Shown one piece after another: positions 15,450 through 27,093 of a stretch of DNA of 38,351 nt. This DNA comes from a virus. The position numbers and the translations under genes were made by a program. Position 1 is the stretch's first letter. The number at the start of each line of letters is the position of its first letter. The DNA lies in the IMG/VR virus record IMGVR_UViG_3300025466_000093, positions 1-38,351 of that record, one strand, 5' to 3'. Under the pieces are notes generated by a model that was given only the letters and a program-made list of their open reading frames with translations, did not search any database and was not told where the DNA came from.

Positions 15450-16153
15450 GGTAATGAGATATTAGTTGGTGTGCCTGTTCCATTAGAGAACAAGGAAGCA
15501 TTGCTTTGTGGTTGATAATTTTGTGAAGCGCCAATATTAGCTCCAGTGCCGCCCCAGTTGTCCAGATTAGTAGGAGTTGGAGTGCCATTACCTATTTTAG
15601 TCATTAGATTGTTATAGGTCGCTGTTGCTGCTTGTTGAGTGACTAATGGTTGTACAAAATCCCATTGATACATAAATTGGACTTGTTTATCGCTTAAAGT
15701 ACTTACATCTCTTAAATTAGTCAAAATACAATTTGAATAGGTATAAGCAGGAGTGGCTACAATAAAAGTACCGCCTGCCAAAATATGATTATCTAATTGT
15801 GTTTTTAAATTAGTTAAAACAGCTTGTTTTTCAAAGTATCCATTACCATTGTTTTGTGCTGGACAAGCCATCATTAGACTTACCTTTAAAGGCATTTGAA
15901 TAACAGCATTGGCAGCCATTTGAATAGATGCAAAAGGATATTCAGCGACTTGCCATTCTTGTAATGAATTACCACCCACTACTTTAAAGTGAGCAAAATA
16001 ATCATTGGCATCTGGGTAAAATATATCAGCACCCTCAGTAAGAGTTAATATACTCATTAAACCATTAGGCAAATTAGCAGCTAATCCATTTACCAAAAGA
16101 ATAGGAGCTATTTCATATTGGTATTGAAATTGAATTTGTTGTGAAGTAATCAT
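15446..16153 (-). CDS. Baseplate / distal tail (Dit-like) protein
   Basis: A 235-residue protein immediately after the tape measure. Residues 1-170 (FQYQYEIAPILLVNGLAANL, ADIFYPDANDYFAHFKVVGG, TLSDKQVQFMYQWDFVQPLV) have the beta-barrel character of tail-tip ring proteins and the Q-M-x-F/W-D-F ending that closes them. The last 60 residues are Asn/Gly/Thr-rich and probably flexible. Ring proteins that start the tube at the baseplate occupy this place in Bcep781-type and Pam3-type phages. It starts on the ATGA overlap with the tape measure stop. Confidence 0.65.
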   Translation of the reverse strand: MITSQQIQFQYQYEIAPILLVNGLAANLPNGLMSILTLTEGADIFYPDANDYFAHFKVVGGNSLQEWQVAEYPFASIQMAANAVIQMPLKVSLMMACPAQNNGNGYFEKQAVLTNLKTQLDNHILAGGTFIVATPAYTYSNCILTNLRDVSTLSDKQVQFMYQWDFVQPLVTQQAATATYNNLMTKIGNGTPTPTNLDNWGGTGANIGASQNYQPQSNASLFSNGTGTPTNISLP

Positions 16154-17679
16154 GGATTTCCTACAGTTGCCATACCTACAGCAGAAGCAGTAGCATTTCC
16201 GCCAGTATTGTTATTGATATTAACACTAATAGCATTAGAGTACATCTCTCTTTTATAGGTTTCATAACCCATATTAGCTGGTCTCTCATATTGTTGAGTA
16301 ATGATTTTAGAAGCTTCTGTAGGTGTAGCAGCCTTTTTAAGAGCTTCTCCAGCCATAGCTTCTTTATGATTTAGTTCATATAGGAAGAATTGTAATTGTT
16401 CTTGTAAAGTACTTCCTTTTAATGAATGACCAAACAATGATTCAAATTCTTTTTGACGAGCAGTATCCCATTGAGCAATACCTACACCTGATCCGCCTTT
16501 TTGTAGAGCATTAGGGTTATAGCCACTTTCAGCATAGAAATTACCAAGAACACCAGCGATTTGAGCTTTTGTAAATCCTTTGCTTGCAAGGAAATCAATA
16601 ATTTGTTGTTTATTACTTTTTTGTTGTGCAGAGCTAATAGTCTCAGATCCTGCTGGATTTAAAGTCTTATTAACTTGTGACACTTGACCAAAAGCCCTTC
16701 TAAGTGCATCTACAAGCTCACCTAAGATTTTAATTAAAGGAGCAAATATATATTCTGCAATACCTAATTTAGATGGAGTAAATGCTTGTAAAATTTTTCT
16801 TTCAATAGTTACTTTTAAAGTCGTAAAGAAGGTTTCAATAGTAGTCTCAATAGTCTGCGCTCTTTTTTCTTCTTCTGGGGTAAGACCGACTGCTGGAACT
16901 AATTGTTTATATCGCTCTACTGTCTCTGGGAACTCTTTTTGTAGTTTAAGTATTCTTAATTGCTCATCAAGAGGTAAGACTTGACCATAGCCCTTAACAG
17001 CAGATAGAACTTGTAGTCTTTGTAAGCCTTGTTGTGTATTGACATCAATGCCTTGTTTTTTGACATCTTCAAGGAATTTTTGTACTATGAGTGGGTAGAG
17101 TTGTGCTGCATCTTTACCAATATTTTCTTTGCCTACCATCTGTTGTAGGTAAGGGGATAATTTTGTCTGTAAATCTGCTATTTTGCTTAAATCTGCGGAT
17201 ACATCACCAAAGCGCTTAAATGCAATCTCAGCAGCCCTTAATTCAGCAGTATCTCTTAATCCAAGACCAGCAGCCTGCCTTCTTTTCTCTGATACATCTT
17301 CTACAGTAGATGATATAGCTCCACCAGCAATACCTAATGCTAATGATGCTAAAGCGCCTTCTGTACCAAATAAAGATAGGAATTTACCTGCGATTGAGGA
17401 AATATTATTCATATTTCCACTAATTACTGTAGTTATTTTTTGGGTAAGTTTAAGACTTTCATTGCTATCATCGATAGCTCTCATATAGTCTTTAAGTGAT
17501 TTGGTATGACCTTTTACAGCCTTCTCAGAATCTAGGGATGTCTTTTTAGTTTGCTCATTGATCTTTTGCCAGTCTTTAGGCATTCTTTCAACAGCTTCTT
17601 TGTATTGCTCAAAGGCAACTAGAAATTCTTGGAATTTCTCGTCTAGTACATCTATCTCAATTACTGATTTAATAGCCAT
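16150..17679 (-). CDS. Tape measure protein with tail lysozyme domain
   Basis: A 509-residue protein. Residues 1-85 are helical and charged, residues 98-130 a Gly/Ala-rich hydrophobic helix (LFGTEGALASLALGIAGGAI), residues 130-350 mixed helices. Residues about 355-480 form a tail-lysozyme domain: IIDFLASKGFTKAQIAGVL, then GNFYAESGYNPNA with the catalytic-type Glu384, GVGIAQWD and the end motif YERPAN. This domain should cut peptidoglycan during DNA injection. The length sets tail length; at about 0.15 nm per residue (known rule) a tail near 75 nm is predicted. The gene follows the chaperone frameshift product by 21 bases and has no clear Shine-Dalgarno sequence before its ATG. Confidence 0.88.
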   Translation of the reverse strand: MAIKSVIEIDVLDEKFQEFLVAFEQYKEAVERMPKDWQKINEQTKKTSLDSEKAVKGHTKSLKDYMRAIDDSNESLKLTQKITTVISGNMNNISSIAGKFLSLFGTEGALASLALGIAGGAISSTVEDVSEKRRQAAGLGLRDTAELRAAEIAFKRFGDVSADLSKIADLQTKLSPYLQQMVGKENIGKDAAQLYPLIVQKFLEDVKKQGIDVNTQQGLQRLQVLSAVKGYGQVLPLDEQLRILKLQKEFPETVERYKQLVPAVGLTPEEEKRAQTIETTIETFFTTLKVTIERKILQAFTPSKLGIAEYIFAPLIKILGELVDALRRAFGQVSQVNKTLNPAGSETISSAQQKSNKQQIIDFLASKGFTKAQIAGVLGNFYAESGYNPNALQKGGSGVGIAQWDTARQKEFESLFGHSLKGSTLQEQLQFFLYELNHKEAMAGEALKKAATPTEASKIITQQYERPANMGYETYKREMYSNAISVNINNNTGGNATASAVGMATVGNP

Positions 17680-17700: not shown

Positions 17701-18398
17701 TTAAAAAAAAGAACGACTTTTTAATGCTTTCAAAATATGCCTTTGTCTAAACTCTGTGACATCGGTATATTCTGCACCATACTCTTTCATAAAATCACTA
17801 AAGCCAGAAGTACTTACATAGTTAAAAATATAGGCAACTATGCTATCACTGTCTGCGAGGTAGTTTCTTTCTCTGTCGATGTCTGCAAGCCACTCATGTA
17901 TTCCATAGAGTTGGATGAAGTAAAATCCCAGTTTCTTATCGATCCTGCCGCTGCTAAAAAAGCTTGTCGAAATTGCTTCGGAGCTACCGATGATATTGCT
18001 ATAAAAAAAATTAGGTCAGAAAGCACCTCACTTTCTTCAGCTTCATCAAGTATGCCTTGTTTTTTAGCTACTTCTAAGGGTAATGATTCCCAGCCTTTTT
18101 CACCAGTAAATAAGACATTGGTAAGTCTTATTATTTCATTTACTAATCCAAACTTAACTCCATCCCAAGTACCATTCTTTTTAGTAATGGACTTTAATGC
18201 AGGATAAGCTAATTGTGGGGCTGATAAAGCTAAATGAGCTTCATTCATGCCTGACATACAATTAGTAAATACAGCGCCTAATTCAGAGTAAAACTGCTCA
18301 AACAAATCCCTACTAATAGGGCTTGAGTGAATATATATAGTCTTGTCATCACCAGTTTCAAATGGGATCACAAGATTTAATTTTTGGTTAATTCTCAT
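17701..18398 (-). CDS. Tail assembly chaperone, -1 frameshift product (about 232 aa)
   Basis: Below the zero-frame stop the -1 frame stays open to a TAA at 17701-17703, 21 bases before the tape measure start. It reads as protein-like text (KLGFYFIQLYGIHEW, SGFSDFMKEYGAEYTDVTEF, RQRHILKALKSRSFF). The -1 frame is open upstream only as far as a TGA near 18015. Within this overlap lies U UUU UUA at 17955-17961 in correct phase, the same heptamer as in HIV-1 gag-pol. Slippage there joins residues 1-148 to 84 new ones. This is the G/GT architecture of lambda, in which the long form binds the tape measure and recruits tube subunits. Expression has not been shown. Confidence 0.85.
17838..18398 (-). 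CDS. Tail assembly chaperone, zero-frame product (186 aa)
   Basis: The short form, analogous to lambda gpG. It starts MRINQKLNLVIPFETGDDKT and contains LFEQFYSELGAVFTN and VKFGLVNEIIRLTNV, a mostly helical protein as expected for tail chaperones. It is placed between the tail tube and the tape measure, which is the diagnostic site for this gene pair. The ribosome-binding site is strong (AAAAGGACAGAAA then ATG). The zero-frame end, after residue 148, is short and polar (STEKETTSQTVIA). A terminator lies just upstream between the tube gene and this gene, so its own promoter or read-through is needed. Confidence 0.85.
   Translation of the reverse strand: MRINQKLNLVIPFETGDDKTIYIHSSPISRDLFEQFYSELGAVFTNCMSGMNEAHLALSAPQLAYPALKSITKKNGTWDGVKFGLVNEIIRLTNVLFTGEKGWESLPLEVAKKQGILDEAEESEVLSDLIFFIAISSVAPKQFRQAFLAAAGSIRNWDFTSSNSMEYMSGLQTSTEKETTSQTVIA
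17955..17961 (-). other. Slippery heptamer U UUU UUA
   Basis: On the minus strand the zero frame reads GCT TTT TTA, so the heptamer T TTT TTA fits X XXY YYZ. Both tRNAs can re-pair in the -1 frame as TTT TTT. Codons used are Phe147 and Leu148 of the chaperone. Confidence 0.85.
18003..18009 (-). other. Second possible slippery site U UUU UUU
   Basis: The zero frame reads ATT TTT TTT ATA at a run of eight T, giving T TTT TTT. The -1 frame is open here too, because the nearest -1 stop (TGA) lies just upstream. Slippage would replace zero-frame residues after Phe132 by a different 14-residue link before reaching the same -1 sequence. It is a weaker candidate than the site at 17955-17961. Confidence 0.4.
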
Positions 18399-18410: not shown

Positions 18411-18447
18411 TAAAAAAATACCCCCAAGCCCAATGACTCAGGGGTAT
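18411..18447 (-). terminator. Rho-independent terminator after tail tube gene
   Basis: On the minus strand ATACCCC pairs with GGGGTAT (7 bp) around a 16-base loop and is followed by seven T. It lies between the tube gene stop and the chaperone ribosome-binding site. Partial termination would make tube and sheath transcripts more abundant than those for chaperone, tape measure and baseplate. Confidence 0.8.
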
Positions 18448-18454
18448 AGATCAA

Positions 18455-18901
18455 TTAAGCACCAGCAGCAAATAATGCAGCATTGATACTGTAAATACCT
18501 CTTAATCGCACAATAAGACCAGCTTGTGTGCCATCAAAAGCAACTTCTTGAACACTTTGTAAAACACAGTTATTTAACTCAAATGGAGATAATGCAACTG
18601 AGTCAGGATGTACTGTTACTGATCCTAGAGTTGTATTAACTTCAATTTGACGCTTATAGGCATCACCTAAAGCTTGAGTTCTTAATAGGTGCATAGTCAC
18701 AGTTCCATAAATATATGGCTCTGGGCTTGTTACAGCGCCTGTTAAAGTACCAATAAGTTGTGAAGTGTCACCATCAAAAGAAAGACTGATAGCTTCTTTA
18801 GCAAGGTAAGAAGCAGTGACATTGAGTTGTTGATAGTTAGCATAGACTACACTTGCTAGTAGTCTATTTAAAGTACCTTGTTGTATTTGTGGATTCGCCA
18901 T
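18455..18901 (-). CDS. Tail tube protein (DUF3277-like)
   Basis: A 148-residue protein that follows the sheath gene. It starts MANPQIQQGTLNRLLASVVY and contains SFDGDTSQLIGTLTGAVTSP and YGTVTMHLLRTQALGDAYKR. This agrees with the DUF3277 tube family (near 150 residues), in which a conserved start (GTLNR...SV...) is followed by beta-strands and a central helix. The end, GLIVRLRGIYSINAALFAAGA, is typical. It polymerises into the inner tube through which DNA passes. Expected to be one of the most abundant virion proteins, in line with the terminator right after it. Confidence 0.85.
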   Translation of the reverse strand: MANPQIQQGTLNRLLASVVYANYQQLNVTASYLAKEAISLSFDGDTSQLIGTLTGAVTSPEPYIYGTVTMHLLRTQALGDAYKRQIEVNTTLGSVTVHPDSVALSPFELNNCVLQSVQEVAFDGTQAGLIVRLRGIYSINAALFAAGA

Positions 18902-18913
18902 TATTTATTCTCC

Positions 18914-20215
18914 TTAAGTTGGGATGTTGCTTGCAGTTAAGTAGATAGTAATTTCAGAGAATCCTCTTTGTGGTACAAAGGTGCAAGCTAGACCATTATA
19001 AGCGCCTGTTGCATAATCACCTGGATTTTCAGTGACATAAGTACTGAAAGGTACTGCTGTTACTGTTGCAGGTGAAAGAATTAATCCAAAAGAAATACCA
19101 TTATTTACTGTTGCTTGTGCTACTTTTTGTAAGGTATTAATACCTGCTTGATTGTAGTAAAGCGGATTAGTAGATAAATTACTGCCATTAATAATAGCGC
19201 CAGCTAAAGATTCAGCGACATTAATTGAAAGCCAATCAACAGCATACCAGTAATTAAATGGATTTAAGTCCATGAAAGTACCACCATAAATCAAGGTATT
19301 TGAAATACCACCTTGTGCGCCTGTACCTACATAATTAACACCAGCTGCTAACAATTGAGTTTCTTGTGTGTTTGTTAAAACAGAGCTGTAATCTGTTACG
19401 CCATAGATATAAGTATATTCAAGTGGTGAAGCTAAATTAGCTGCACTTGGGTTGTAGCTTAGAGTTACCCAGAAGAATGCAGCTGCACTAAATTCTGTTA
19501 CAGGTGCTGCTGGGTTAGGAACTACTGCAAATACTGATTTAATACCATTCCATGCTGTATAAGTAACTAAAGTAGTACTTACATAGAAATAAATTTCTGC
19601 TGTAGTACCATTATTAGCTCTTGCTAATGAAACTGCTGTAGGTTCTGTATCCCAAGCATAAGGTAATAGATAGCTATAAAATTGAATTGTAGGATTAGCA
19701 ATATAAGCTGTTAAAGATGTAACACCTTGCGCTGGAGTTCCTGCACCCAATTCTAGGATATAAACACCTAGAGTTTTGCCTTGAGCAAAGAAGGTTTGAA
19801 CCATAGCATAAAGCTCTTGGCTATCTTCTAAGATCACTGCACCACCAGATACATAATTACCTGGATTAGAAGCTAATGGATAACTAAAGCTAGTTGAGCT
19901 TACATAAGTAGCATTAACTGTACCATTATAGCCAGTAGGATTAACACCAGAAATAACTACTTTAATTGTGTCTCCGCTAGGGATTCCATGAGCTGAAGTT
20001 GTTGTTACTGTAGCTAAACCAGCTGACCAAGTAATACCAGAGATATTAACTGCTGCTTTTAGCAATGGTGTTAAATCAGATGCTTGTGTAAGCAACTGTG
20101 TTGTACCAGTTGTTAAATTTGTTGCGCCTTGAGAAATCAAAGCACCTGTTTGCTGTAAAGTATTAGGAGCGCCTGCTACCTGTTGCCTTACAACGACATT
20201 TACGATATTTGGCAT
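18914..20215 (-). CDS. Tail sheath protein (DUF3383-like)
   Basis: A 433-residue protein with the DUF3383 sheath pattern: MPNIVNVVVRQQVAGAPNTL at the start, then LYAMVQTFFAQGKTLGVYIL, TIQFYSYLLPYAWD and the C-terminal ISFGLILSPATVTAVPFSTY. Residues about 57-127 form an inserted beta domain (IPSGDTIKVVISGVNPTGYN, YPLASNPGNYVSGG) that would face outward on the sheath. The same kind of insert is present in the baseplate J-like protein. A sheath gene proves the contractile (myovirus) tail. The ribosome-binding site is AAGGGGG. Position before the tube gene is canonical. Confidence 0.9.
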   Translation of the reverse strand: MPNIVNVVVRQQVAGAPNTLQQTGALISQGATNLTTGTTQLLTQASDLTPLLKAAVNISGITWSAGLATVTTTSAHGIPSGDTIKVVISGVNPTGYNGTVNATYVSSTSFSYPLASNPGNYVSGGAVILEDSQELYAMVQTFFAQGKTLGVYILELGAGTPAQGVTSLTAYIANPTIQFYSYLLPYAWDTEPTAVSLARANNGTTAEIYFYVSTTLVTYTAWNGIKSVFAVVPNPAAPVTEFSAAAFFWVTLSYNPSAANLASPLEYTYIYGVTDYSSVLTNTQETQLLAAGVNYVGTGAQGGISNTLIYGGTFMDLNPFNYWYAVDWLSINVAESLAGAIINGSNLSTNPLYYNQAGINTLQKVAQATVNNGISFGLILSPATVTAVPFSTYVTENPGDYATGAYNGLACTFVPQRGFSEITIYLTASNIPT

Positions 20216-25677: not shown

Positions 25678-27093
25678 TTAAGACACCTCTTGGTTAGTTA
25701 ATAAAACTCCAGTGGCTTCGCCACCTTTGTCCCAAACTCCTTTTGATCCTCTCGCTTTCGTAACAATTGCTATATGATCTAACAGGAATGGTACGCCTTC
25801 AATCAAGAGCGGCTCGCCACTCTCGGTTGTCAGTGTTGTATTTCCAGCGGATTGGTCAAAGACCACCGATGGTGAAGTCGATATTTCGCCTTCTAAAATC
25901 TCATCGACAGAAGCTTGGTCATAAATCTTGGCTATGCCCCAAACCTCGTCACCTTTGATATATGGTAGCATGATACTACCAACTGCCCTATCTTTAAACT
26001 CTTTAGAGGTCAAGACAGCGCTCTCAGGGTGATCCATAATGACTGTTAAGCCATTACATCTCTTTAAAAATTCTTCATTTAGGTAAAGTGATGGATCTCT
26101 CCATACATGCTCGCCAATAGATGATCTATAAGCTAAGCCAGTACCTGTAATTCTAATAGCTAGTAAACAGATATTCGCATACATCTGTGGACTAGGTAAT
26201 ACATCATCCTTTATAAGCTCTGCAATATCATATTCAGTTTTTGCAGCTGCCACTCTAAATGCAGTAGCAAGACCTGGATGCAATGGCATAGGTGGATTGC
26301 TTAAATGACTCCAATCATAGCCTGTAGATTCATCACATACTTTAACAGGGAACTTTTTAATATCTCTGGCAATATAGGTGCAAAATTGACCATCGTCATG
26401 CAATATCTCTAAATCGCCTTCATATCTTCTGCCAGTTTCTTCTGCTGCTTCTCGTCTAGCGCAATCTTCTAATGTTTCGCCTTCAATTTGATGTCCGCCT
26501 GGTACGCACCACATATTTGGATAATCGCCACCATTACCTCTGCGAACTAATAGAGTTTCATTGCTTTCAGTCAAAAATAAGATTCCAGATGCTCTACCTT
26601 CAGCCCCTGCCATTTTATCTATTGGTTTCTCATCAACTGCTACAACTGATCCTTCAACTGCTGAATCTGGTACACAGTTAGGCACTTCTTTGCCGCCTTT
26701 TTCCTTCATACCTATTTGTTGATAACCTTCCCAGCAAGGGTCAGCATCTTGACCAAATCTAGGTACAGGCTCTCCAGCTCTTACCATGATTTCATTCTCA
26801 TTCATGGTCTTTACTTTGTCTAAAAGAGTATCTGTCTTATAGGCTCTAAGGATTTTTGCGATTTCCGCAATTTCACCCTGTACATTTTGCAATTCTTCTC
26901 TTGGATCTGCAATTTCTTCTTCTACTTTTGCATTTTCTGCAAATTTTTTAGGAGTAAGCAATACTGGAGCTGATAATTCATCTTCTCCATGCTTAATAAA
27001 CTTCTTAGCAACTTCTTTAGGTATTCCTATATTGGATTTACTTTTAGCGGCTGCATACATAGCTTTTCTTTGTTTTTCTGACTCAAAGGGCAT
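25678..27093 (-). CDS. Nudix hydrolase - DUF2213 prohead protease fusion
   Basis: A 471-residue protein with four parts. Residues 1-36 (FESEKQRKAMYAAAKSKS) are a common phage head motif. Residues 118-142 have CWEGYQQIGMKEKGGKEVPN followed by CVP, also a recurrent motif. Residues about 167-290 are a Nudix domain with a full Nudix box: Gly200, Glu206, Arg214-Glu215, Glu218-Glu219, Gly221. Residues 315-460 are a DUF2213-type protease: VIMDHPES with His355, STSPSVV with Ser408 and FLLDHIAIVTKARG with His440. DUF2213 proteins mature the prohead. Why a nucleoside-diphosphate hydrolase is joined to it is not known to me. The Nudix box is intact, so activity is plausible. Confidence 0.85.
   Translation of the reverse strand: MPFESEKQRKAMYAAAKSKSNIGIPKEVAKKFIKHGEDELSAPVLLTPKKFAENAKVEEEIADPREELQNVQGEIAEIAKILRAYKTDTLLDKVKTMNENEIMVRAGEPVPRFGQDADPCWEGYQQIGMKEKGGKEVPNCVPDSAVEGSVVAVDEKPIDKMAGAEGRASGILFLTESNETLLVRRGNGGDYPNMWCVPGGHQIEGETLEDCARREAAEETGRRYEGDLEILHDDGQFCTYIARDIKKFPVKVCDESTGYDWSHLSNPPMPLHPGLATAFRVAAAKTEYDIAELIKDDVLPSPQMYANICLLAIRITGTGLAYRSSIGEHVWRDPSLYLNEEFLKRCNGLTVIMDHPESAVLTSKEFKDRAVGSIMLPYIKGDEVWGIAKIYDQASVDEILEGEISTSPSVVFDQSAGNTTLTTESGEPLLIEGVPFLLDHIAIVTKARGSKGVWDKGGEATGVLLTNQEVS

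Follow-up and report, generated by a model that had tools for sequence, protein, structure and literature searches.

The window is the whole stretch of viral DNA analysed here, 38,351 nucleotides corresponding to positions 1 to 38,351 of the IMG/VR record IMGVR_UViG_3300025466_000093. Its tail genes are arranged on one strand in the order sheath, tube, G, extension and tape measure, with the following features in window coordinates.

16150..17679, minus strand: tape measure protein, 509 residues, with a phage tail lysozyme domain (phrog_9570, 1.7e-33; PF18013, 1e-29)
17704..18003, minus strand: -1 extension of 100 codons, a T-like domain (phrog_14324, 3e-7)
17838..18398, stop included, minus strand: zero-frame gene for a predicted G-like tail assembly chaperone, 186 residues (phrog_11810, 8e-34)
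17841..18002, minus strand: dual-frame stretch of 54 zero-frame codons past the shift site, with an intermediate substitution pattern in relatives
17955..17961, minus strand: second in-phase heptamer, T TTT TTA, non-conserved, a possible minor extra shift site
18003..18009, minus strand: slippery heptamer T TTT TTT, conserved at one codon in 63/66 loci, where the -1 shift most likely takes place
18418..18447, minus strand: intrinsic terminator-like hairpin in the tube/chaperone gap, 13 pairs followed by T7 (z -3.4)
18455..18901, minus strand: presumed tail tube protein, 148 residues (phrog_6566, function unknown; role from position)
18914..20215, minus strand: tail sheath protein, 433 residues (phrog_205, 3e-30)

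The location of the 148-residue phrog_6566 protein between the sheath and the chaperone suggests that it forms the tail tube. The sheath had been read from sequence as a DUF3383 protein. It gave no match to Pfam DUF3383 (PF11863) over the curated cut-off and was assigned to phrog_205 instead. The true DUF3383 sheath of Acinetobacter phage AB1 sits in the same PHROG, so the label was near, if unsupported by a Pfam match. The same 14 phage records encode relatives of both the sheath and the chaperone. Five related Yersinia phages have contractile tails by electron microscopy, in a paper that does not mention a frameshift (PMC9224151). The terminator-like hairpin has counterparts in HK97 and N15, which have annotated putative terminators between the tube and chaperone genes, and attenuation between the tube and the chaperone/tape measure genes may therefore be a shared feature. 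The tape measure protein is short, with its Phage_lysozyme2 domain near the C-terminus, and in several relatives a lytic transglycosylase is annotated in the tape measure gene. Elsewhere in the window, the product of 25678-27093 (minus strand) matches head maturation protease families and also has a NUDIX-like segment, and is possibly a NUDIX domain fused to a prohead protease.

The sequence-only reading had described a 186-residue gene with T TTT TTA in phase at 17955-17961, a -1 frame open for 84 codons from there to within 21 bases of the tape measure start, and a further heptamer, T TTT TTT at 18003-18009, leading into the same frame. This anatomy was confirmed throughout, the gene running from 18398 down to 17838. 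The T TTT TTT heptamer lies in zero-frame phase within a T8 run (18003-18010). The -1 frame has a stop 6 nt upstream of this heptamer and is then open to a TAA at 17701-17703, which gives 100 codons counted from T TTT TTT. It continues 137 nt past the zero-frame stop, and the tape measure ATG (17679) lies 21 nt beyond its end. A shift at 18003-18009 is predicted to yield a fusion product of 232 residues with FFYSNIIGSSEAISTSFFSSGR in its junction peptide. A second T8 run (17703-17710, minus strand) ends the extension just before its stop (SFF-stop). As an in-window control, we examined 30 ORFs of 120 residues or longer on the same strand, with 45 in-phase heptamers of the A/T type between them. 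Only from the two heptamers of the chaperone gene does the -1 frame stay open beyond the end of the gene itself, the runner-up having an extension of 24 residues. Together with the retention of the extension and of T TTT TTT in distant relatives, this excludes chance.

Homologues, which the sequence-only reading had proposed comparing for conserved heptamers, distinguish between the two sites. A family scan with one degenerately back-translated peptide pattern containing FF, run on viral contigs, gave 80 loci, which together with those of the phage records come to 66 distinct loci; a scan of genome contigs found no relative. T TTT TTT is in phase at the homologous codon, with a -1 extension behind it, in 63 of the 66. 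The run at the site is T8 in 57 of these loci and T7 in 6, and the next base is always A. These 63 loci form 23 clusters at 70% identity, with a minimum pairwise identity of 26%; the p-value computed at this step counts clusters as independent and leaves the exceptions out. At the homologous codon, T TTT TTT is present in all the isolate phages, whose zero-frame proteins are 24-36% identical to that of the window, and T TTT TTA occurs in none of them; in the isolate records that we read, the gene is annotated just as 'hypothetical protein'. The T TTT TTA heptamer is confined to the window and two contigs with an identical gene, and was absent from all non-identical relatives examined. It had been put forward as the primary site. 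Since T TTT TTT is conserved and T TTT TTA is not, the weighting of the two sites is reversed, and from sequence comparison the main shift site is most likely T TTT TTT at 18003-18009.

The exceptions in the first set are C TTT TTT A (L039), TCT TTT A (L063) and a locus in which the T run is present and the zero frame is interrupted upstream (L030). Further scans found relatives with A, G or C preceding TTT TTT. With L063 and L039 as queries and patterns that did not contain FF, 29 distinct loci were interpretable, some of them already in the first set: T TTT TTT is present in 22, and the remaining 7 have T6 or T4 and keep the extension. In all, the run is T6 in L039/L119, L101, L102, L104, L105 and L107 and T4 in L063/L100, and none of these relatives has lost the extension or has less than T TTT. 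At the first Phe codon of the site, the third base is free to vary and yet is always T; among Phe codons upstream in the same genes, 50 are TTT and 40 are TTC. In L063 (2501-3103, the contig of L100), TCT TTT A leaves only a T TTT tetramer with the -1 extension retained, and this locus offers a naturally occurring case in which slippage of a single tRNA could be tested. In L030 (510-1029, the contig of L117), the zero frame is broken after 72 codons with the shift site and the extension intact; the interruption is probably an assembly or sequencing error.

The extension has a length of 96-123 residues in all 63 loci. Its end lies no more than about 50 nt from the tape measure start and often overlaps it. 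It aligns family-wide, and YG, D, F and R-x-R are conserved in it. We compared the distribution of substitutions over zero-frame codon positions 1, 2 and 3 along the gene. Upstream of the site, the mean shares are.19/.07/.74. In the overlap region they are.15/.37/.49, and past the G stop the excess falls on position 2, the wobble position of the -1 frame; the largest cluster, for example, has 741/1407/411. As judged from these substitution patterns, the -1 frame is coding and both frames are under protein-coding selection.

The zero-frame protein matches phrog_11810 (8e-34 for the window, 21/21 family members), and the extension matches phrog_14324 (3e-7 for the window, 20/21 members). Both families are labelled 'unknown function'. 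Pfam searches with both halves of the 21 members gave sporadic unrelated matches and none to a chaperone family, and searches of the PDB by sequence and by fold gave only chance-level matches. AlphaFold2 models the 186-residue protein with confidence (pLDDT 87) and the extension as a helical domain with fair confidence (pLDDT 75). In Foldseek searches against viral models (BFVD), the top match was one unnamed protein (2e-5) and the second was gp01 of Acinetobacter phage AB1 (E 4e-3, TM 0.40), which falls in a PHROG named tail assembly chaperone (phrog_1932). Further down, at E values of 0.03-0.7, came numerous entries under the names 'tail assembly chaperone' and 'pre-tape-measure frameshift protein G'. 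No single fold match is strong, but on these models the agreement of chaperone names is unlikely to have arisen by chance. In a second look with VIA-align, the top solved structure was Bacillus subtilis YqbN (PDB 3klu), with a Z score of 3.6 that is too low to establish a common fold. YqbN is one of the XkdN-like phage tail chaperones.

Taken together, we consider it highly probable (about 0.9) that the tail assembly chaperone gene of the window undergoes a -1 frameshift of the lambda G/GT type at 18003-18009. Most ribosomes would read straight through and produce the 186-residue G-like protein. A minority, with their P and A sites occupied by the two Phe codons of U UUU UUU, would slip back one base, both tRNA-Phe re-pairing with UUU in the -1 frame. 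The slipped ribosomes would then read 100 more codons, giving a 232-residue GT-like fusion of G residues 1-132 with a C-terminal domain that is largely helical. If lambda is a guide, the tape measure protein would be coated by many copies of G and few of GT, with the extension recruiting the tube protein.

The slip point falls inside a predicted helix of the AlphaFold2 model (residues 119-138 of G), so GT would have a different domain in place of the C-terminal end of the G fold. We lean slightly towards a broader reading in which G and GT are alternative C-terminal forms, as opposed to a protein and its extended version, with some 160-260 bases of functional dual coding maintained across a large phage group and the U run as sole RNA stimulator. 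Assays in E. coli identified heptamers of the form H_HH.U_UU.Y, U_UUU_UUU among them, as efficient motifs; U_UUU_UUU shifts at more than 0.1% without stimulators, and T TTT is a working tetramer motif when stimulated (PMC4066793). An older comparison, as cited in a review, placed U_UUU_UUU far below A_AAA_AAG (PMC5009743).

We folded the region downstream of the site in 23 representatives and found no conserved RNA structure, z being near 0 for most, and RNAalifold gave no consensus pair there. Upstream Shine-Dalgarno sequences show weak enrichment (mean rank 0.19), partly due to conserved E-G-E codons, and the window itself has none at the right spacing. Given no conserved stimulatory structure and this weak enrichment, the efficiency of the shift is not predictable. 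An Rfam search returned nothing, and literature searches yielded no account of this frameshift in the relatives.

Other explanations differ in where, or at what level, the change of frame would take place. The main shift could be at T TTT TTA, or both heptamers could be used to give two fusions distinguished by 16 residues at the junction. T TTT TTA is in phase with access to the same -1 frame, and shift sites of the U UUU UUA type do exist, the AB1 chaperone having T TTT TTA near its 3' end. We regard this as quite unlikely, since all non-identical relatives lack it and keep T TTT TTT alone, since U_UUU_UUA lies outside the class that is efficient in E. coli (PMC4066793), and since a zero-frame ribosome arriving at T TTT TTA has already gone past the conserved heptamer. 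RNA polymerase, instead of the ribosome, might slip on the T8 run and add one U to some mRNAs. The prevalence of T8 among the 63 loci would suit such a mechanism, as would the lack of a conserved RNA structure to stimulate a ribosomal shift, and in E. coli genes both UUUUUUU and AAAAAAA are under-represented in every frame, with transcriptional slippage among the reasons proposed. Slippage by RNA polymerase is expected to be weak at runs of 7, 6 or 4 T. The site is T7 in 6 loci and T6 or T4 in some relatives that keep the extension, which argues against transcriptional slippage as the general mechanism, though it may occur at the longer runs; overall, we think it unlikely. The constant heptamer phase of the run follows from coding and is not independent evidence against it.

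Two further explanations do without a shift. The -1 frame could be a separate overlapping gene with its own start, as a short separate CDS annotated at the extension in phage RothD would have it, and gene calls on ORFs of this sort are presumably the source of phrog_14324. None of 23 representatives has a start codon with a Shine-Dalgarno sequence within the first 35 extension codons, and in the window that interval is free of start codons altogether, which makes a separate gene unlikely. In most members, moreover, the -1 frame first becomes open at the slippery site or a short way 5' of it. With these observations combined, we give a separate gene very little credence. The layout could also be a chance open frame or a sequencing error that split one gene, homopolymer runs being error-prone. 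The same layout recurs in dozens of independently sequenced phages, isolates included, and both frames are under selection; conservation over loci and dual-frame selection refute this explanation, to which we assign a negligible probability.

The -1 shift at the conserved T TTT TTT heptamer suggests a likely function for two PHROG families listed as unknown, phrog_11810 and phrog_14324, and corrects a gene carried in phage records merely as hypothetical proteins. The shift site is identified by comparison and places the frameshift deep inside the first domain of the chaperone. This makes it possible to ask which region of G the fusion requires and whether an unaided U run is enough to set the G:GT ratio.

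Among known frameshifted chaperones, lambda G/GT (GGGAAAG) is similar in having its gene between those of the major tail protein and the tape measure protein and in a -1 shift that joins G to a second domain (PMC5009743). In lambda, however, the shift occurs 5 codons before the G stop, so that GT keeps nearly all of G, whereas 54 G codons are replaced in the window and 54-86 in its family. The heptamer is also different, and the window's protein has no Pfam match to a lambda-type chaperone family. Thus the claim that the locus reproduces lambda G/GT holds for the principle of a -1 fused chaperone and fails for the geometry. P2 E/E+E' (T TTT TTG) and SfV orf13 (T TTT TTC) resemble the window in having a contractile tail and a U-rich site in the gene preceding the tape measure, but their sites lie 6 and 3 codons from the stop, respectively, and both proteins are shorter. 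In Acinetobacter phage AB1 (Obolenskvirus, gp01/gp85, phrog_1932), T TTT TTA opens a -1 extension, although within a few codons of the stop, and hhalign detected no similarity to the two AB1 proteins in either half. The AB1 -1 frame (L092/L093) contains gp85, and the record annotates two genes across its origin. The distance from heptamer to G stop is 3-8 codons in lambda, P2, SfV, TP901-1 and AB1, and for HK97 and N15 the extent of the open -1 frame allows an overlap of at most 17 and 12 codons, respectively; this comparison covers seven reference phages, and longer overlaps may occur elsewhere. A shift near the 3' end of G, as in lambda and P2, is a frequent trait of these systems and not a defining one. 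The window's frameshift is of a known kind, and its early position and long dual-coding overlap make it a variant of that kind.
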